DNA of 10,812 bases from Ruminococcus sp. (GTDB lineage: Bacteria; Bacillota; Clostridia; Oscillospirales; Ruminococcaceae): NCBI GenBank assembly GCA_017544125.1, contig JAFYET010000251.1, positions 1 to 10,812 of the forward strand, written 5' to 3'. This document shows, one piece after another, positions 1,465 to 10,812 of this stretch (within the stretch, counting starts at the first letter, position 1; every line of letters starts with the position of its first letter). Under the pieces are notes generated by a model that saw only the letters and a list, made by a program, of their open reading frames with translations, made no database searches and had not been told where the DNA came from. The position numbers and the translations under genes were made by a program.

Positions 1465-1998
1465 ATGAATGACAGAGAGCTTTTGGAGCTGCTGAAGGCT
1501 GACCCGCATAAGGGGCTTGCGGCGGTGGTGAAGCAGTACAGCGCTTATGTTTACAAGATAGTTTTGAGCCGCCTGAGTGCAGATTGCAGCAGGGAGGATA
1601 TAGAAGAGGCTGTCAGTGACATATTTATGCGGCTTTATACGGCGGTGCAGGGCAGCGATGTTAAGATCAACTCGCTTTGTGCATACCTTGCGGCTATTGC
1701 ACAGCGGCACTGTATAAATGTATTCAAAGCGCACCTGCGGCGTACTGAGACGGTGTCGTTTGATGAACTTGAGGGTGCGCTTGCTGATGACATCACAGCG
1801 CAGGCGGACACAGAGCTTATTGATGCGATACATTCGCTTGGCAAGCCTGACAGCGAGATATTTATAAGGCGCTATTACCTGACGCAGACGGCGGCGGAGA
1901 TAGCGGCAGATCTTGGTATGAAGCCAAACACGGTAAACAAACGTATATCCCGGGGATTAAAGAAACTTAAAGAAATACTGAAGGAGGGAGAAAACTGA
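1465..1998 (+). CDS. Sigma-70 family RNA polymerase sigma factor (ECF-like)
   Basis: This 177-residue protein has the two-domain build of a small alternative sigma factor. Region 2 covers about residues 20-90, with an acidic helix REDIEEAVSDIFMRLY typical of region 2.1/2.2 core-polymerase binding. Region 4 covers about 118-172, with PDSEIFIRRYYL and the helix-turn-helix TAAEIAADLGMKPNTVNKRISRGLKKLKEIL that would read the -35 element. It has no sigma region 1.1 or 3. The ATG at 1465 follows GTGAGG with 7-base spacing. Its stop overlaps the start of the next gene by one base, the standard arrangement of a sigma factor with its membrane anti-sigma factor. A house-keeping-type promoter lies upstream and no clear self-recognised promoter was found. 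The signal it answers to cannot be read from the sequence. Confidence 0.9.
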   Translation: MNDRELLELLKADPHKGLAAVVKQYSAYVYKIVLSRLSADCSREDIEEAVSDIFMRLYTAVQGSDVKINSLCAYLAAIAQRHCINVFKAHLRRTETVSFDELEGALADDITAQADTELIDAIHSLGKPDSEIFIRRYYLTQTAAEIAADLGMKPNTVNKRISRGLKKLKEILKEGEN

Positions 1999-3020
1999 TG
2001 AGACTTACAAGGCTTTATGAGGCAGACGATATAAAGACTTGCGAGCATATGCAGAGTGAGCTTGAAAGCATAAGCTCGCACTCGCAGCTCGATGAAGATG
2101 CACAGCAGCGCATTCTCTCCCTGACGATGAAAAAGGCGGGATTTGAGATGAATGAAAGCATAACAATAAACAAGACTAAAAGATTCAGCAGGCGGTTTAT
2201 CGTGCTTATGGCGGCAGCGGTTATAGCCGTGACAGGTGCAGTAGGCGCAGGGGCAGCGTATATTGCCAAGAGGCGCAGTTCGGTCGAGGCGCTGCTCGGT
2301 GAAGAAAAGGCGGTGGCGCTTGACAGCCGTGGGCTGATCGACGAAAAGCACTTTGAGACGGATAAATATGATATGACGATAGATACCGTGCTTTGCGACG
2401 GGCAGAGCGTGCTATTAACGCTCGAAGCTGTGCCCAAGGACGAGAATATGTCTTTAGAGGAACTGGAGGAAGATATCACGGGCAGATGCTTTTCCATTGA
2501 CTGCAACTGGGAAAAGGAAGATGTGATGAAAAAGCAGGACAATATGCTTGTGGACGAGGCTATGAAAACCAATATTGACTATGGAGAAAGGGCTGTAAGG
2601 GTATTATGGCAGGGCGAAATGGAAAAGCCCTTTGATAAGCTGTTTCTGCCGCTTGCTGTAAATGTTATGAACCAAACGCATGACGAGCAGGATGTCATCG
2701 GCGATATAGTGCTTGAGCTTAAACAAAACGTGATAAGCCGTGATTTTGTAAATGCGAACGGCGAAAAGGTGAGGGTATCGGAAATTGCAATAACGGCAGA
2801 TCACCTTTCGGCAGGCGTGACGGCTGAAAACATCGAACCTTTATTTGAGTATGATGACGGCAGCACAGCCTATGCGCCGCAGGTGAGCTTTTCTGCTGAC
2901 CCTTATAGTGACGATGATACAGAGTTTGATAATGCTTATATAGATATGTTTACAGTTGTTGATATAATCAATATAAGAGCTGTAACTATCGGCACACAAA
3001 GATATGAAGAGGTGACCTGA
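1998..3020 (+). CDS. Membrane-anchored anti-sigma-like protein (DUF4179-like)
   Basis: The 340-residue protein starts with a cytoplasmic segment (about 1-62). A basic stop (KTKRFSRR) and one membrane helix at about 67-90 follow (FIVLMAAAVIAVTGAVGAGAAY), then an extracytoplasmic domain of some 250 residues rich in Asp and Glu. This layout, and the pairing with the sigma gene just upstream, match the DUF4179 group of Firmicute anti-sigma/sensor proteins. The N-terminal segment would hold the sigma factor at the membrane. The zinc-binding H-x3-C-x2-C signature of classical ZAS anti-sigma factors is not present. The start codon ATG (1998) overlaps the sigma stop, and AGGAGGGAG (1982-1990) inside the sigma gene is a strong ribosome binding site, so both proteins are translationally coupled. 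The family name is less certain than the topology. Confidence 0.8.
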   Translation: MRLTRLYEADDIKTCEHMQSELESISSHSQLDEDAQQRILSLTMKKAGFEMNESITINKTKRFSRRFIVLMAAAVIAVTGAVGAGAAYIAKRRSSVEALLGEEKAVALDSRGLIDEKHFETDKYDMTIDTVLCDGQSVLLTLEAVPKDENMSLEELEEDITGRCFSIDCNWEKEDVMKKQDNMLVDEAMKTNIDYGERAVRVLWQGEMEKPFDKLFLPLAVNVMNQTHDEQDVIGDIVLELKQNVISRDFVNANGEKVRVSEIAITADHLSAGVTAENIEPLFEYDDGSTAYAPQVSFSADPYSDDDTEFDNAYIDMFTVVDIINIRAVTIGTQRYEEVT

Positions 3021-5011: not shown

Positions 5012-5040
5012 TTGACACGATAGGAAATGAATGTTATAAT
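5012..5040 (+). promoter_or_regulatory. Perfect consensus sigma-A promoter of the GCS2-type ligase
   Basis: TTGACA (5012-5017), a 17-bp spacer and TATAAT (5035-5040) match the consensus at all 12 positions. The start near 5047 gives a leader of about 70 bases. CCTAT (5008-5012) and ATAGG (5020-5024) form an inverted repeat around the -35 element and could be an operator. TAGGAAATG is repeated at 4984-4992 and 5021-5029. Confidence 0.85.
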
Positions 5041-5116: not shown

Positions 5117-6502
5117 ATGACTGATGAAAGGCTCAGTGAGGCGATATACGAAAAGTATATCGAACCCACCGACAAGCACAGGAGCAGCATGGCGGGTATC
5201 GAGATAGAGCTGCCTGTGGTGAATATGTCAGGCGATGCCGTCGATGAGAGTCTTGTCATCGAAGCGGCTGACAAATTCAGAGAGCATTTCGGCTTTGAAG
5301 CCGAGGGGCGTGACGACAACGGGAATGTAAACTCGATGACATTCAGGCAGACGGGCGACAACCTTTCCTTTGACTGCTCATACTCAAACTTAGAGCTTTC
5401 GCTGGGCAAGGGCGATGACCTTTGTGCGATACACGAGAGCTTCAAAAAGTATTACGGCTATATGCAGTCGCTGCTGCAAAAAAATAACTACACGCTCACG
5501 GGCATGGGTATTAACCCGCATTACAACATCAACCACAACAAGCCCGTACCCAATGAGCGGTACAGAATGCTTTACCACTACCTGCATTCATATCACAGGT
5601 ATGAGGGCAAGATAAATATGAGCTTTCACAACAGACCCGACTTCGGCACGTTTACCAGCGCATCGCAGGTGCAGCTTGATGTTGAGAGAGAGTCGCTCAT
5701 CGACACGATAAACGCATTCACGCTGCTTGAGCCCTACAAGGCGCTGCTGTTTGCAAACTCATATCTGCCGGAGTACCCCGAATACCTGTGTGCGAGGAAT
5801 ATGCTCTGGGAGCACAGTATGCAGGGCTTTAACCCACACAATGTGGGAATGTTCGGCAGCAGGCTGCAAAGCGTTGACGAGCTTATAGAATACATAAAAT
5901 CACAATCCGTCTACTGCACGATGCGTGACGGAAGATACATAGATTTCAAGCCCACCGCCGTGAAGGATTATTTCACCCTCGGGCAGGTGAGGGGCGAGTT
6001 TTTTGACGGGGAGAAGTACATCATTACAGAATTCACCCCTGATGAGAGCGACCTGAAATATCTGCGGACGTTCAAGTTTGAAGACCTGACGTTCAGAGGC
6101 ACGATAGAATACCGCAGCTCATGCACACAGCCAATAAAGGACGTTATGACGGTTGCGGCGTTCCACACGGGACTTTCGGGCAGGCTTGAAGAGTTGACGG
6201 CGCTTGTTGAGAGTGACCGCACGCTTTACAGGCACGGCTTCACGCCTGTGCAGCTTCAGGATATGCTTTCAAAAAGAGAGCTGCCCGGCTTTATTGACAA
6301 GCAACAACTCAGCAGGCAGCTTATAAGGATACTCGATATTGCGGCGGCAGGGCTTAAAGACAGGCAAAAGGGCGAGGAGAAGTTCTTAAAGCCGCTCTAC
6401 ACCAGAGCCGAGAAGCTGACAAACCCTGCAAAGGAAATGCTCAGAGGCTTGGAAAGCGACACTTCGATGGACGAGTTTATCGAGCTTTATTCGGCGGTGT
6501 AA
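5117..6502 (+). CDS. GCS2-family glutamate-cysteine ligase-like enzyme (EgtA/plant GCL type)
   Basis: The 461-residue protein shows the motif series of the GCS2 carboxylate-amine ligase fold. The Mg/ATP-binding GIEIELPVVN is at 27-36, YSNLELSLG at 89-97, TGMGINPHYN at 128-137 and ERYRMLYHYL at 147-156. ASQVQLDVER follows at 182-191, LLFANSYLPEYP at 210-221, WEHSMQGFNPHNVGMFG at 231-247 and RGTIEYRSSCTQP at 327-339. Members make an ATP-driven gamma-glutamyl amide bond, in known cases gamma-glutamylcysteine. It would act in the cytoplasm and shows no signal peptide or membrane span. GGAG at 5104-5107 supports the ATG at 5117. It has its own strong promoter and ends convergently with the next gene. 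A gshA-type ligase of a different family lies 0.9 kb away, so this one may use another amine substrate. Family confidence is high, substrate confidence low. Confidence 0.8.
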   Translation: MTDERLSEAIYEKYIEPTDKHRSSMAGIEIELPVVNMSGDAVDESLVIEAADKFREHFGFEAEGRDDNGNVNSMTFRQTGDNLSFDCSYSNLELSLGKGDDLCAIHESFKKYYGYMQSLLQKNNYTLTGMGINPHYNINHNKPVPNERYRMLYHYLHSYHRYEGKINMSFHNRPDFGTFTSASQVQLDVERESLIDTINAFTLLEPYKALLFANSYLPEYPEYLCARNMLWEHSMQGFNPHNVGMFGSRLQSVDELIEYIKSQSVYCTMRDGRYIDFKPTAVKDYFTLGQVRGEFFDGEKYIITEFTPDESDLKYLRTFKFEDLTFRGTIEYRSSCTQPIKDVMTVAAFHTGLSGRLEELTALVESDRTLYRHGFTPVQLQDMLSKRELPGFIDKQQLSRQLIRILDIAAAGLKDRQKGEEKFLKPLYTRAEKLTNPAKEMLRGLESDTSMDEFIELYSAV

Positions 6503-7346
6503 TGCTGTCGGCATAGGCTTTGAAATGCTGATACAGCTCATCTGAGCGGTCAGGTTCATGAGAAAGATAGGCGATGACAAGGCGCTTGTCGGGGTAGACC
6601 ATACAGCGCTGACCCCATTTGCCGACTACCGAGAAATGGTCATCAGCTACACGGAAGAAATAGCCGTAGCTATCACCAGAGCCGGTATTCACATAAGGCG
6701 TTAGGGCGGCGGTGAGTGAGCGCTCGCTTATAAGCTGCTGACCGTCAAAGCTGCCTCTATCAAGGCAGAGCTGACCGAAAAGTGCAAGCTCATGAACGGT
6801 AAGCTCCATACCCGTAGCGCCGTAGAAATGCCCCTCGGGCGAGGTAAGGCAGGGCGGCATGGAGATACCCAAAGGCGAGAACAGGCGCTTATCAAGGTAG
6901 CGAATGAGCTCACAGCCGACAGCGTTCTCTACTGCGACACCCACAAGGTATGCGGGGATATTTGAGTAGTGAAAAGACTTATCCGAGTGGTCGGTATCAA
7001 GAGTGAGCACTGTTTCAAGCCAGTTATCACCGTAAGGGCGGAAGGGGTATGAGCCCGCCGTCATAGTAAGAAAGCGGCTGACGGGCAGCTTTTTGAAATC
7101 ACTGCTCATAAGGTGATGATAGCGGCTCTCGATATATTCACAAAGCGGTGTGCCGGGGGTTATAAGCCCGTCATCACAGGCGAGGGCAAAGGCGGCAGAG
7201 GTAATCGACTTGGTCGCTGAATAAACAGGGCGGCGGATATCATCGTGGAAGGCTTTATGCAGTGCGATAGCACCGTCTGAAATGACTTCAAGTGCATGGA
7301 TAGAAAGCTCTGAGCTTTTAAGGCTATCAAAAATGGGATATATCAT
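6477..7346 (-). CDS. Serine hydrolase, beta-lactamase/class C fold, cytoplasmic
   Basis: This 289-residue protein belongs to the serine beta-lactamase/esterase family (PF00144-like). The nucleophile motif SxxK is S43-A-T-K46, the tyrosine motif is Y127-S-N129, and the third motif is probably GKWGQR (242-247) in place of KTG/HTG. There is no signal peptide, so it should act inside the cell, unlike true beta-lactamases and DD-peptidases. It is shorter than typical class C enzymes (about 360). Related cytoplasmic proteins include esterases and amide hydrolases of unknown substrate. The start is supported by GAGGTG a few bases upstream. Its 3' end overlaps the GCS2-type ligase by 26 bp in the opposite direction, and its 5' end is divergent from gshA with only 57 bp between them. 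A role in cleaving a gamma-glutamyl or thiol compound is possible but only inferred from location. Confidence 0.82.
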   Translation of the reverse strand: MIYPIFDSLKSSELSIHALEVISDGAIALHKAFHDDIRRPVYSATKSITSAAFALACDDGLITPGTPLCEYIESRYHHLMSSDFKKLPVSRFLTMTAGSYPFRPYGDNWLETVLTLDTDHSDKSFHYSNIPAYLVGVAVENAVGCELIRYLDKRLFSPLGISMPPCLTSPEGHFYGATGMELTVHELALFGQLCLDRGSFDGQQLISERSLTAALTPYVNTGSGDSYGYFFRVADDHFSVVGKWGQRCMVYPDKRLVIAYLSHEPDRSDELYQHFKAYADSITPPNKAR

Positions 7347-7363
7347 AAAAACACCTCATATGT

Positions 7364-7392
7364 ATTATAGAATAACATTCACATATTGTCAA
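7364..7392 (-). promoter_or_regulatory. Perfect consensus sigma-A promoter of the serine hydrolase
   Basis: On the minus strand TTGACA (7392-7387), a 17-bp spacer and TATAAT (7369-7364) match consensus fully. The start near 7357 would leave only about 10-12 bases before the ATG at 7346, just enough for the GAGGTG site. The -35 hexamer overlaps the start of the ribosome binding site of the divergent gshA-like gene. No comparable plus-strand promoter was found in the gap. Confidence 0.8.
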
Positions 7393-7403
7393 GGAGAAAA
7401 ATA

Positions 7404-8558
7404 ATGAACAGCAGTTTGTTTTATAAAGGCGGTTACGGGCTCGAGCGTGAGACGCTGCGTGTAGATATAAACGGCAGGCTTGCGCAGACACCCCACCCTT
7501 TCGGTGATGATGAGAGCATCACGAGGGATTTCTGCGAGAACCAGATAGAGGTAATAACCCCCGTCTGTAAAAGCATAGATGAAGTGATGAGCGAGCTTGG
7601 CAGGCTCGACAGGATAGTAAGAGAGAAGCTGAAAGAAAACGGTGAGAGGATATGGCTTTATTCAAACCCGCCGCATTTTGATAATGAGGACGAGATACCC
7701 GTTGCGAACTTCGTAGGCAGGCACTCGGGCAAGCGCAAATACCGTGAGCAGCTTGAAAAAAGATACGGCAAAAAGCTGATGCTCTTTTCGGGCGTGCATT
7801 TCAACTTCTCGTTTGATGAGGAGTATTTAAAAAGCATTTGCGATGATGAGGACTATGACAAATGGCGTGATGAGTTTTACTTAAGGCTTTACAAGCAGCT
7901 GAGCGTTCACAGCTGGCTGATGCTTTTGCTGACAGCGGCAAGCCCGAACTGCGATGAATCGCTTTTCAAAGACGGCGGTCACGGGGTAAGGAAAAGCAAA
8001 TATACATCTATCAGGAGCAGCGAGGCAGGCTACTGGAACAAGAGCCTGCCGATATTAAGATTTGAAAGCCTTGATGAGTTTATCAAAAGCATAGAGGAGT
8101 ATGTTAAAAAAGGCATATTATTCTCATCAAGCGAGCTTTATCTGCCGGTGAGATTAAAGCCGAAGGGGGTCAATTCTCTTGACAGCTTTAAAAACGGGGT
8201 GAGCCACATTGAGCTTAGAATGTTTGACCTTGACCCTGATACACCCCTTGGAGTTGACGAAAAGAACATTGAATTTGCACACCTGCTTATAATGTATCTA
8301 TCAACTCTGCCTGACTTTGAATTTGATGAACAGTTACAGATAAATGCAGCAAGAAATCACAAGAACGCAGCACTTGATGATCTGTCAGGCATCGAGGTAG
8401 ACGGCGTGCCGATGCTGCAAAGAGCAACAGAGATATTAGAGCAAATGGCAGCATTTTTCGAGGGAGATGAGCAGGCACTTGACATTATAAAATATCAGAA
8501 TAATAAACTTAAAAACAGAAATACAGACAGACAAAAGAAAGAAGACTTAGCAGGATAG
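7404..8558 (+). CDS. gshA: Glutamate-cysteine ligase, GshA/GshAB N-domain type
   Basis: This enzyme makes gamma-glutamylcysteine from Glu, Cys and ATP in the cytoplasm. It is the type of ligase found in E. coli GshA and in the first domain of bifunctional GshAB. Residues visible are YGLERETLRVD (11-21, with the metal-binding Glu14 and Glu16), ITRDFCENQIEVITPV (39-54), RKYREQLEKRYGKKLMLFSGVHFNFSF (111-137) and HIELRMFDLDPDTPLGV (268-284). At 384 residues it is shorter than E. coli GshA (about 520). It has no ATP-grasp C-terminal domain, so it cannot make glutathione alone. The ATG at 7404 follows AAGGAGA (7391-7397); the in-frame TTG at 7386 lies upstream of that site and is rejected. It is the first gene of a run with the amidotransferase and sufCB. 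Confidence 0.85.
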   Translation: MNSSLFYKGGYGLERETLRVDINGRLAQTPHPFGDDESITRDFCENQIEVITPVCKSIDEVMSELGRLDRIVREKLKENGERIWLYSNPPHFDNEDEIPVANFVGRHSGKRKYREQLEKRYGKKLMLFSGVHFNFSFDEEYLKSICDDEDYDKWRDEFYLRLYKQLSVHSWLMLLLTAASPNCDESLFKDGGHGVRKSKYTSIRSSEAGYWNKSLPILRFESLDEFIKSIEEYVKKGILFSSSELYLPVRLKPKGVNSLDSFKNGVSHIELRMFDLDPDTPLGVDEKNIEFAHLLIMYLSTLPDFEFDEQLQINAARNHKNAALDDLSGIEVDGVPMLQRATEILEQMAAFFEGDEQALDIIKYQNNKLKNRNTDRQKKEDLAG

Positions 8559-8570
8559 AGGTGAGTGAAA

Positions 8571-9326
8571 ATGTGCGAGCTGTTTGGCTTTTCGGGGGCT
8601 GAAAAGACAGATATAAGAGAATACCTGAAGGCTTTCTTTTCGCACGGCAGCAATAACCCCCACGGGTATGGGCTGATGTATGATGATGACAGAAAGGTCA
8701 TAAAAGAGCCCGTAAATGCAGCGGATAGTGAGAGACTTGACAAAACGGTGAAGGAGCTTGGCAAGCAGGCGGTAACGCTTGCGCACATACGCTTCGCAAC
8801 GGTGGGCTCGGTAGATGAGAACAACTGCCACCCCTTTACAAAAAGCGACAGCTCGGGGCGTGTATGGACGCTGATACACAACGGCACGATATACACGGGG
8901 CGTGAAACATACAACTATTTTAAAGTGCAAAAAGGCGACACTGATTCGGAAAGGCTGTTCCTGGCGTTTATCGACAGAATGAATGATAAATTAAAGCAGG
9001 GTGAGCTCAGTGAGCGGGAGCGGTTTGAGGCTGTGAATGAGTTTATAACTGAGAACTCGCCGAGGAACAAGCTAAACCTTATACTATACGACGGGGAGCT
9101 GATGTATGCACACAAAAACATGAAAAACACCCTCGGCTTTTCATTGGTCGGCGGGGGAGTGCTTATCTCGACTACACCGCTTTGCGAAGCCCGGTGGCAT
9201 GATATGCCGATGGCGCAGGTGGTGGCATACAGGCATGGCGAAGAGGTATACCGGGGCGAGAAGCACGAAGGCGAATTTATTCCTAACCTTGAATACATCA
9301 CAGCACTTGATGCTATGCACATATAA
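8571..9326 (+). CDS. Class II glutamine amidotransferase, YafJ/EgtC family
   Basis: The 251-residue protein has an N-terminal-nucleophile glutaminase fold. Removal of Met1 would expose the catalytic Cys2 (MCELFGFSG). Other family positions are HGYG (31-34), AHIRFATVG (71-79), NCHPF (85-89), the oxyanion/Asn motif HNGTI (103-107) and GDTDSERLF (122-130). There is no synthase domain, so it is a stand-alone amidohydrolase. Family members include E. coli YafJ (role unclear) and actinobacterial EgtC, which removes gamma-glutamate from a thiol intermediate. The ATG at 8571 is required for a terminal Cys; an in-frame GTG at 8565 would bury it. GAGGTG (8558-8563) overlaps the last base of the gshA stop, leaving 12 bp between genes. 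Sitting behind a gamma-glutamylcysteine-forming gene suggests a gamma-glutamyl substrate, but this is inferred. Confidence 0.88.
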   Translation: MCELFGFSGAEKTDIREYLKAFFSHGSNNPHGYGLMYDDDRKVIKEPVNAADSERLDKTVKELGKQAVTLAHIRFATVGSVDENNCHPFTKSDSSGRVWTLIHNGTIYTGRETYNYFKVQKGDTDSERLFLAFIDRMNDKLKQGELSERERFEAVNEFITENSPRNKLNLILYDGELMYAHKNMKNTLGFSLVGGGVLISTTPLCEARWHDMPMAQVVAYRHGEEVYRGEKHEGEFIPNLEYITALDAMHI

Positions 9327-9348
9327 ATAAATGAAAGGAAATAGTGAA

Positions 9349-10101
9349 ATGTCAGACATACTGAAAATAGAAGGACTTACAGTTGCAGCAGAGGACACGG
9401 AGCTTCTGCACGGAATAGATATGACGGTCGGCGAGGGTGAGACACACCTGCTTATGGGGCACAACGGTGCAGGAAAATCCACCCTCGGCTGCACAATAAT
9501 GGGCAGCCCCGAATACAAGGTGACGGGCGGCAGGATAGTATTTGACGGCGATGACATCACGCAGGAGAGCGCTGACAAGCGTGCAAAGAGGGGCATATTC
9601 CTCTCATTCCAGAGCCCTGTGGAGATACCGGGAATAACCCTTTCGGAGTTTTTACGAAACGCACTGGAGCAGGTAAGCGGCAAGCGCATGAAGCTGTGGG
9701 ATTTCAAAAAGCAGCTTAAAGCGGCAATGGCGCTTATCGGAATGGACGAGAGCTACGCTGAGCGTGACCTGAACGTAGGCTTTTCGGGCGGCGAGAAGAA
9801 AAAGGCTGAGATATTGCAGCTGCTTATCTTAAAGCCGAGACTTGCGATACTTGACGAGACCGACTCGGGGCTTGATGTTGATGCGGTAAAGACGGTATCA
9901 AAGGGCATCGAGGAATACAGAAAGAGCGTCGGCGGCACGCTTCTCATCATCACACATAATGCAAAGATACTCGAATCGCTGAAGGTTGACAGAACGCATA
10001 TCTTATCAAACGGACGTGTGGCAAAAGAGGGCGACGGCGAGCTTGCGGCACAGGTGCTTGAAAGCGGCTTTGAGAACACATTAAGCGGGGTAGAAAAATG
10101 A
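9349..10101 (+). CDS. sufC: SufC, Fe-S cluster assembly ATPase
   Basis: The 250-residue ABC-type ATPase powers the SufBC(D) scaffold that builds Fe-S clusters in the cytosol. It has Walker A GHNGAGKST (37-45), the Q-loop FQSPVEIPGITL (87-98), the signature FSGGEKKKAEILQ (145-157), Walker B LAILDETDSGLDVDA (165-179) and the switch His203 in IITHNAKIL. The FSGGEKK/ETDSGLD combination is diagnostic for SufC rather than for a transport ATPase. The length is normal. The start at 9349 has AAGGAA with 8-base spacing; the in-frame ATG at 9331 overlaps that site and has none of its own. It begins 22 bp after the amidotransferase stop and overlaps sufB by four bases. No separate promoter was seen in the short gap, so it is probably co-transcribed with gshA. 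Confidence 0.95.
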   Translation: MSDILKIEGLTVAAEDTELLHGIDMTVGEGETHLLMGHNGAGKSTLGCTIMGSPEYKVTGGRIVFDGDDITQESADKRAKRGIFLSFQSPVEIPGITLSEFLRNALEQVSGKRMKLWDFKKQLKAAMALIGMDESYAERDLNVGFSGGEKKKAEILQLLILKPRLAILDETDSGLDVDAVKTVSKGIEEYRKSVGGTLLIITHNAKILESLKVDRTHILSNGRVAKEGDGELAAQVLESGFENTLSGVEK

Positions 10102-10812
10102 AGCAGAAAACACAGGTAGATGATATAGACCGCTCGCTCTACGATTTCAGGTATGATGAAGACGAGGGAGATTTTCTGCAGGCTGGGATTTCGCCCGAGA
10201 TCATAACCGAGATATCGCAGGAGAAGAACGACCCCGAGTGGATGAGGGACTTCCGCCTAAGATCGCTCGAAATATACAGGCGCACACCCATGGTCACGTG
10301 GGGCGCTTCGATAGAGGGGCTTGATGTTGACAACATCGTCACATACATTCGCCCCAAGAGCCGCATGAACACAGATTGGGACGATGTGCCTGAGAACGTT
10401 AAGGAGACCTTCGAACGCCTTGGAATACCCCAGGCGGAGCGTGAATCGCTGGCGGGCGTGGGTGCGCAGTATGACAGCGAGCTTGTTTACCACAACGTCA
10501 GGGAAGAGGTCGCACAGTCGGGCGTAGTATACACCGACCTTGAAAGCGCAATGCACGACCCGAAATATGCCGACATTATCAAGAGCCATTTCATGAAGCT
10601 CGTGCCGCCCACAGACCACAAGTTTGCAGCGCTTCACGGAGCTGTATGGTCGGGCGGGTCATTTGTATATGTACCGAAAAATGTACGGCTAGATATTCCG
10701 CTGCAATCGTACTTCAGGCTCAACGCAAAGGGTGCAGGGCAGTTTGAGCACACGCTCATCATACTCGAGGAGGGGGCTTATCTGCACTTTATCGAGGGCT
10801 GCTCGGCACCGA
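10098..10812 (+). CDS. sufB: SufB, Fe-S cluster scaffold (5' part, cut by the window edge)
   Basis: An ATG inside the ATGA that ends sufC opens a frame to the window end (238 complete codons). The visible protein carries SufB hallmarks: GISPEIITEISQEKNDPEWMRDFRLRSLEIY near residues 30-60, a VPENVKETFERLGIPQAERESLAGVGAQYDSE block, then VVYTDLESAMHDPKYADIIKSHF, and GAVWSGGSFVYVPKNVRLDIPLQSYFRLN leading into the beta-helix core. SufB binds SufC and holds the nascent cluster. The C-terminal half, with the cluster-ligand residues, lies outside the window. The four-base overlap implies coupled translation in a fixed ratio with SufC. Further suf genes would be expected downstream but cannot be seen. 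Confidence 0.95.
   Translation, partial: MKQKTQVDDIDRSLYDFRYDEDEGDFLQAGISPEIITEISQEKNDPEWMRDFRLRSLEIYRRTPMVTWGASIEGLDVDNIVTYIRPKSRMNTDWDDVPENVKETFERLGIPQAERESLAGVGAQYDSELVYHNVREEVAQSGVVYTDLESAMHDPKYADIIKSHFMKLVPPTDHKFAALHGAVWSGGSFVYVPKNVRLDIPLQSYFRLNAKGAGQFEHTLIILEEGAYLHFIEGCSAP

Follow-up and report, generated by a model that had tools for sequence, protein, structure and literature searches.

The 10,812-nucleotide stretch of DNA analyzed here (the window) is one whole contig (JAFYET010000251.1, C200) of a Ruminococcus sp. assembly (GCA_017544125.1; 81.8% complete, 398 contigs), which among named relatives is nearest to rumen Ruminococcus (RUG13257 at 87% identity; a protein named R. albus at 71%). 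The two ligase open reading frames reported in the initial annotation are present on its forward strand. The first (5117-6502) encodes a 461-residue GCS2-type ATP-dependent carboxylate-amine ligase resembling plant glutamate-cysteine ligase (GCL), and the second (7404-8558) a stand-alone, 384-residue GshA-type ligase related to the N-terminal half of GshAB, in which no ATP-grasp domain was found. A third gene (8571-9326, same strand), starting 12 bases past the end of the GshA-type gene, encodes a 251-residue class II glutamine amidotransferase (GAT; GATase_4, EgtC-like). On comparative genomic evidence, the three genes are shown to form one functional unit.

The GCS2-type protein is like plant-type GCL by model, profile and predicted fold (predicted local distance difference test score, pLDDT, 78.9 for the model). 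The sole NCBIfam model that it matched at E 0.01 was the plant-type GCL equivalog TIGR01436 (40.9 bits, below the curated cut-off of 463); no EgtA model in NCBIfam reached that level, and the EgtA label first given to this protein is thus unsupported. Its score against Pfam GCS2 (PF04107) was 16.6 bits, with a gathering cut-off of 21; of eight fused relatives also scanned, P0172, P0175, P0135 and P0166 scored 24–37 bits and the other four were not listed for this family. The plant-type fold and catalytic-core residues are present: E29, E31, E93, R227, E331 and R333 are common to the GCS2-type protein and three alphaproteobacterial GCL-type proteins, two of them annotated as glutamate–cysteine ligase and one, from Sinorhizobium, unannotated. 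The Arg227, Glu331 and Arg333 positions are consistent with the roles in glutamate activation that we take them to have. Core residues are kept across 146 GCS2 domains, with the motifs in at least 97% of members. Compared with the same alphaproteobacterial proteins, the GCS2-type protein has an inserted segment and many fixed changes (e.g., Q186, C336, Q338 and H350, found in at least 95% of the 146 members), which we infer to sit in the substrate pocket. One genome carries, away from its trio, a second and diverged GCS2 copy (55%; L125, G087:C28:8710-10089).

The GshA-type protein passed the test for Pfam Glu_cys_ligase (PF04262; 210.8 bits, gathering cut-off 27) and matched the GshAB/GshF model NF002688 over its N-terminal half only, at 280 bits against a cut-off of 425, and is thus not a member of that family. 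Catalytic residues are kept across 128 GshA domains, again with motifs in at least 97% of members. Residue 126 is Met in the window protein and in 85 of 85 aligned stand-alone GshA sequences (one entry being the GshA half of a fusion, L164), and four further stand-alone proteins also have Met. The same position is Gln in 11 of 11 GshAB and 7 of 7 other aligned sequences, in four solved homologues (Gln144 in E. coli) and in the GshA halves of three GAT-GshA fusions. In this alignment the stand-alone GshA of L163, L165, L167 and L168 made up a separate group; L169–L171 lay outside the stand-alone group, the same genes (L140, L142, L145) being among the seven other sequences. The region around this residue presumably lines the cysteine site.

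GAT scored 106.8 bits against PF13230 (cut-off 23) and so passed the test for a class II glutamine amidotransferase. Its N-terminus is Met-Cys-Glu-Leu, with a ribosome site at the start, and across 94 GAT domains the conservation of Cys2, Arg74, Asn104-Gly105 and Asp125 is 97% or higher; we take the N-terminal Cys to be the nucleophile and the Arg, Asn-Gly and Asp residues to bind the γ-glutamyl group. The closest NCBIfam model was EgtC (TIGR03442; E 4.6e-14), of which GAT is not a member, its 52.4 bits lying far below the cut-off of 218.65. GAT also resembles structure 1te5, presumably YafJ, and we likewise regard it as YafJ/Dug3-like.

Searching 84,980 species genomes with two peptide patterns gave 424 confirmed GCS2-type relatives, the best 80 of which became named loci (L022–L101) with open reading frames called by our own script. 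GCS2, GshA and GAT occurred together in 65 of these 80 loci; in four more the GCS2-GshA pair ran to the contig end, and 11 had no adjoining GshA. Among neighbors of GCS2 at 85 loci, GshA (73) and GAT (70) far outnumbered the next commonest family (25). Because these other neighbors vary, the trio is not a leftover of general synteny. Eight of the 11 genomes without adjoining GshA carry it elsewhere, and GAT adjoins the distant GshA in all seven of these that were fetched; in one (G708) both ligase genes are near contig ends and the split may be an assembly break. The trio also survives shuffling of gene order in other families (GshA-GAT-GCS2 in L162, GAT-GCS2-GshA in L166). Cultured strains of R. 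flavefaciens, namely 007c, ATCC 19208 and Y1 (L054, L058, L061), carry the set. In R. flavefaciens MC2020 the GCS2 gene (L072:8040-9344) lacks its start and first residues, and a search of the genome gave no GshA, so the two seem to decay together there.

The distribution of the ligases is nested. Within 297 genomes of the family, GshA was found in 22, and the 12 that have GCS2 are all among them (some genomes are listed twice, as a named locus and a G handle, e.g., G716/G509, so that this sample and the named loci overlap). Among 41 sampled genomes, GCS2, GshA and a clear GAT orthologue were confined to seven genus genomes; 12 others matched GAT weakly (E 6e-6 to 8e-4). Mobile-element carriage was rejected: there was no close plasmid copy, and the eight plasmid matches were all alphaproteobacterial, at 22.7–24.1% identity.

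The case for a pathway shared by the three proteins rests most strongly on gene fusions. Among proteins of 0.55–1.75 times query length, a GCS2-domain search in long proteins (scoring the 7994 candidates that shared most words) gave 57 proteins and a GAT-domain search (all 900 candidates) gave 17. The 68 new entries (P0121–P0188) comprised protein clusters with the order GCS2-GshA (9), GshA-GCS2 (26, including two short pieces, P0170 and P0176), GAT-GCS2 (13) and GAT-GshA (3), together with GCS2 alone (16) and GAT alone (1), with a Pfam check on eight fused entries; P0089, one of the 57, lies outside this domain count. Fusion has thus linked GCS2 with its partners in three ways, and GAT-GshA is a further arrangement. 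At one locus (L164) the two ligases form a single 887-residue protein with GAT adjoining. In a tree of 54 of the 146 GCS2 domains (12 of the 26 GshA-GCS2 proteins among them) and three outgroup proteins, with groups judged on labelled rows only, GshA-GCS2 rows formed one group (100/100) and GAT-GCS2 another (93/88); the GCS2-GshA fusion requires two changes, which are not forced by well-supported branches. A predicted structure of a GAT-GCS2 fusion (pLDDT 61, predicted template modeling score 0.54) was too poor for domain geometry and hence says nothing on ammonia channeling. One cluster, P0188, joins GAT to a match to PF02446 (4-alpha-glucanotransferase) and may be an artefact.

No known type of glutathione synthetase gene (gshB) accompanies the cassette, as the initial annotation had noted. 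In the window genome and six genus-mates the GshAB model found the GshA half and weak general ATP-grasp matches only, with no second half, and the glutathione synthetase model PF02955 found nothing in four of these seven genomes (G000, 81.8% complete, G004, G005 and G006). Loss to incomplete assembly was ruled out, since G004 and G005, 98–99% complete, also have no gshB; one genus-mate is 99% complete in two contigs. Of 40 chosen genomes, only the control G578 had full GshAB (984 bits, plus its own second-half match at 219 bits). A second-half match of 256 bits occurred in G028, from another family, in which no GCS2 or GshA was found. PF02955 gave matches in 6 of the 40 handles, five of them above cut-off.

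ATP-grasp ligases do occur beside GshA at other loci. One lies directly upstream of GshA in L112 (3606-4901) and L119 (5748-7202); in L163 (9550-11130) it is also upstream, at a distance of two genes. The family members are 65–66% identical to the L112 protein, and no GCS2 lies beside those GshA genes. Three of the 40 genomes carry a protein at least 65% identical, and no such protein was found in any of the 24 handles (23 genomes) in which GCS2 is known; two of the three positive genomes have no GCS2 genome-wide, the third (G589) falling outside the GCS2 search. From this small sample it seems that one slot beside GshA can take different second ligases. In two genomes without GCS2, an adenylate-forming enzyme (AMP-binding in Pfam, phenylacetate-CoA-ligase-like by eye) is encoded upstream of the paired GshA and GAT genes (L113:6118-7458 and L114:8011-9354).

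The adjoining GAT gene, the conserved trio, the fusions and the fact that GCS2 is nested in genomes with GshA argue for a single pathway containing both ligases, not for independent enzymes; trio conservation, nesting and fusions likewise rule out two independent ligases brought together by chance. With confidence that is evenly balanced, we read the window as a three-protein γ-glutamyl pathway cassette whose ligases would act sequentially to make a non-glutathione thiol or γ-glutamyl compound. The GshA-type enzyme would convert Glu, Cys and ATP to γ-glutamylcysteine. The GCS2-type enzyme would take the usual place of glutathione synthetase in this pathway and use ATP for a second amide ligation: it could extend γ-glutamylcysteine with a further γ-glutamyl group, ammonia or another small amine, or make a γ-glutamyl amide as the partner of γ-glutamylcysteine. 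GAT would bind a γ-glutamyl group, and either hydrolyze the product, like Dug3 and EgtC, or split glutamine and pass ammonia to a ligase. These two roles appear about equally likely: the hydrolase is favored by the pairing or fusion of GAT with GshA alone, and GAT-GCS2 proteins, with their N-terminal GAT, resemble glutamine-dependent synthetases in layout. The product, presumably a low-molecular-weight thiol or γ-glutamyl compound other than glutathione, most likely contains sulfur; a thiol is favored, if unproven, because of the sulfur-related setting of these genes (O-acetylhomoserine sulfhydrylase-like, suf, cysteine synthase and homoserine O-succinyltransferase genes). In relatives with GshA and GAT only, γ-glutamylcysteine is perhaps the end product.

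A more specific version of this proposal, which we put forward tentatively and regard as rather doubtful, is a glutathione-like thiol pathway without glutathione synthetase, in which a plant-GCL-like ligase in place of an ATP-grasp enzyme elaborates γ-glutamylcysteine to an undescribed thiol of rumen and gut Bacillota. The elaborated form might be an amide, made with ammonia channeled from glutamine by an N-terminal GAT, or γ-glutamyl-γ-glutamylcysteine, and the GshA-GCS2 fusions would be the counterpart of GshF.

Several observations weigh against the sequential pathway. Characterized GCS-fold ligases activate the γ-carboxylate of glutamate, and extension at the cysteine carboxylate would therefore be a new activity; adding another γ-glutamyl group would not be. 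The cysteine specificity of the cassette GshA is uncertain because of its fixed differences from GshAB, including that at the E. coli Gln144 position. GAT cannot serve GCS2 alone, since it pairs with GshA where GCS2 is missing (it lies beside GshA in 9 of 10 GshA-only family genomes) and fuses with Gln-bearing GshA. Three genomes (G704; G705, which is strain MC2020; and G709) of 20 searched have GCS2 with no detected GshA, the two other than MC2020 being apparently metagenome-assembled; the set of 20 was chosen to include loci with GCS2 away from GshA. The five handles with PF02955 matches above cut-off represent four GCS2 genomes (G266, G314, G573 and G509, the last the same as G716); at 26–49 bits these matches may be RimK-like ligases, and a GshB-like ligase in these genomes is possible. 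In three GCS2 genomes there were weak partial matches to the ATP-grasp query as well (E 8e-5 to 9e-4). Genomes that are related, moreover, do not count as independent samples.

If instead γ-glutamylcysteine were the end thiol, GshA would make it, GAT would hydrolyze it to free cysteine, and GCS2 would be a second, differently regulated GCL. This is unlikely, though several points speak for it: γ-glutamylcysteine is the main thiol of Leuconostoc and L. reuteri, which have no gshB (PMC3462692), and the product of GshA in haloarchaea (PMC7278568), no gshB was found in the genus genomes, and GCS2 has kept the core residues of the plant-type ligase. A redundant enzyme, however, would not be expected to co-occur with GshA and fuse to it so often in both orders, or to nest within GshA genomes, and GCS2 differs from the compared GCL-type proteins at many fixed positions. 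The same nesting and fusions are not predicted if GCS2 glutamylates an amine other than cysteine or γ-glutamylcysteine in a reaction parallel to that of GshA, with GAT removing γ-glutamyl groups as EgtC does in ergothioneine synthesis; nor is any further biosynthetic gene constantly linked to the trio. We consider this quite improbable, even though EgtC is the nearest, if distant, NCBIfam model to GAT and the Arg227, Glu331 and Arg333 positions shared with GCL-type proteins fit glutamate activation. Nesting and the GshA-GCS2 fusions favor the sequential pathway. Fusions in both orders would also suit a single hetero-oligomeric ligase with one regulatory partner, as animal GCL has a catalytic and a modifier subunit. 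Catalytic motifs kept in nearly all members of both proteins are not those of a regulatory subunit, and in the chosen set of 20 genomes the two ligase genes are apart in 7 or 8, which makes such a complex very improbable.

Turning to the surroundings of the cassette, a sigma-A type promoter-like sequence lies upstream of the GCS2-type gene (5012-5040, forward strand: TTGACA at 5012-5017, a 17-base spacer and TATAAT at 5035-5040), as judged from the letters only. Rfam found no riboswitch or other control element in the window and eight loci, two tRNAs being the only matches. Between the ligase genes, on the opposite strand and overlapping the end of GCS2, is a gene (6477-7346) for a beta-lactamase-family serine hydrolase, weakly like 3-succinylated cholic acid synthase in NCBIfam. 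It occurs between the ligase genes in 13 of 69 GCS2-GshA loci and near the cassette in 17 of 85, and is an occasional insertion and not a core member. GAT is followed by sufC (9331-10101, forward; TIGR01978 above cut-off) and sufB (10098-10811, forward), the latter cut by the contig end. sufC follows GAT in 12 of 61 assessable loci, with sufD- and sufS-type genes next in a relative (L019); in this clade a suf operon comes after the cassette, of which it is an occasional neighbor, and a link between the thiol and iron–sulfur assembly is possible. The window also holds the O-acetylhomoserine sulfhydrylase-like gene; elsewhere, the GshA-GAT pair has beside it a cysteine synthase (cysK) gene (L110) or a homoserine O-succinyltransferase gene (L117). 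A gene for a sigma-70-family sigma factor, like the extracytoplasmic function (ECF) type, and an adjoining gene occupy 1465-3020; the 340-residue protein encoded directly after the sigma factor has no Pfam match and is possibly an anti-sigma factor.

Rumen and gut Clostridia are mostly regarded as lacking glutathione. The cassette of rumen Ruminococcus and some other gut bacteria probably makes, and recycles, a small γ-glutamyl compound that is not glutathione. The three-enzyme set and its four fusion arrangements supply defined genes for a direct test for a new thiol in cultured R. flavefaciens, and they suggest that one joint pathway lies hidden behind what these genomes list as 'glutamate-cysteine ligase' and 'class II glutamine amidotransferase'. 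The initial annotation had seen either γ-glutamylcysteine as end product or a GCS2-type enzyme acting on another amine; its absence of gshB is supported and its EgtA label is not, and it overlooked GAT, the conserved trio, the nesting and the fusions. A literature search recognized no description of the three-gene cassette, most subscription journals being outside its coverage.

By curated models, the cassette proteins fall outside the equivalogs GshAB, plant GCL and EgtC. As in GshF/GshAB, a GshA-type ligase, related to the GshAB N-terminal half, is joined to a second ligase; unlike there, the second ligase has the GCS fold and not ATP-grasp, a glutamine amidotransferase is added, and fusions occur in both orders. 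From plant and alphaproteobacterial GCL (TIGR01436; PDB 2gwc) the GCS2-type protein differs by its inserted segment and by its low identity (~23%) to plasmid-borne alphaproteobacterial proteins. The pairing of a γ-glutamyl ligase with a class II amidotransferase follows the logic of EgtA/EgtC and Dug3/YafJ, and GAT resembles both 1te5 and EgtC; here, however, there are two ligases, and no other ergothioneine enzyme was among the nine window proteins scanned. Glutathionylspermidine synthetase/amidase, whose folds are unrelated, both builds and cleaves a thiol conjugate with a single polypeptide and is a possible model for GAT-GCS2. We know of no GshF or γ-glutamylcysteine end-thiol system with a GCS-fold second ligase or an amidotransferase. 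What the cassette has in common with the end-thiol systems of Leuconostoc, L. reuteri and haloarchaea is GshA without gshB; what sets it apart is the linkage of a second ligase and a glutamine amidotransferase to that GshA.

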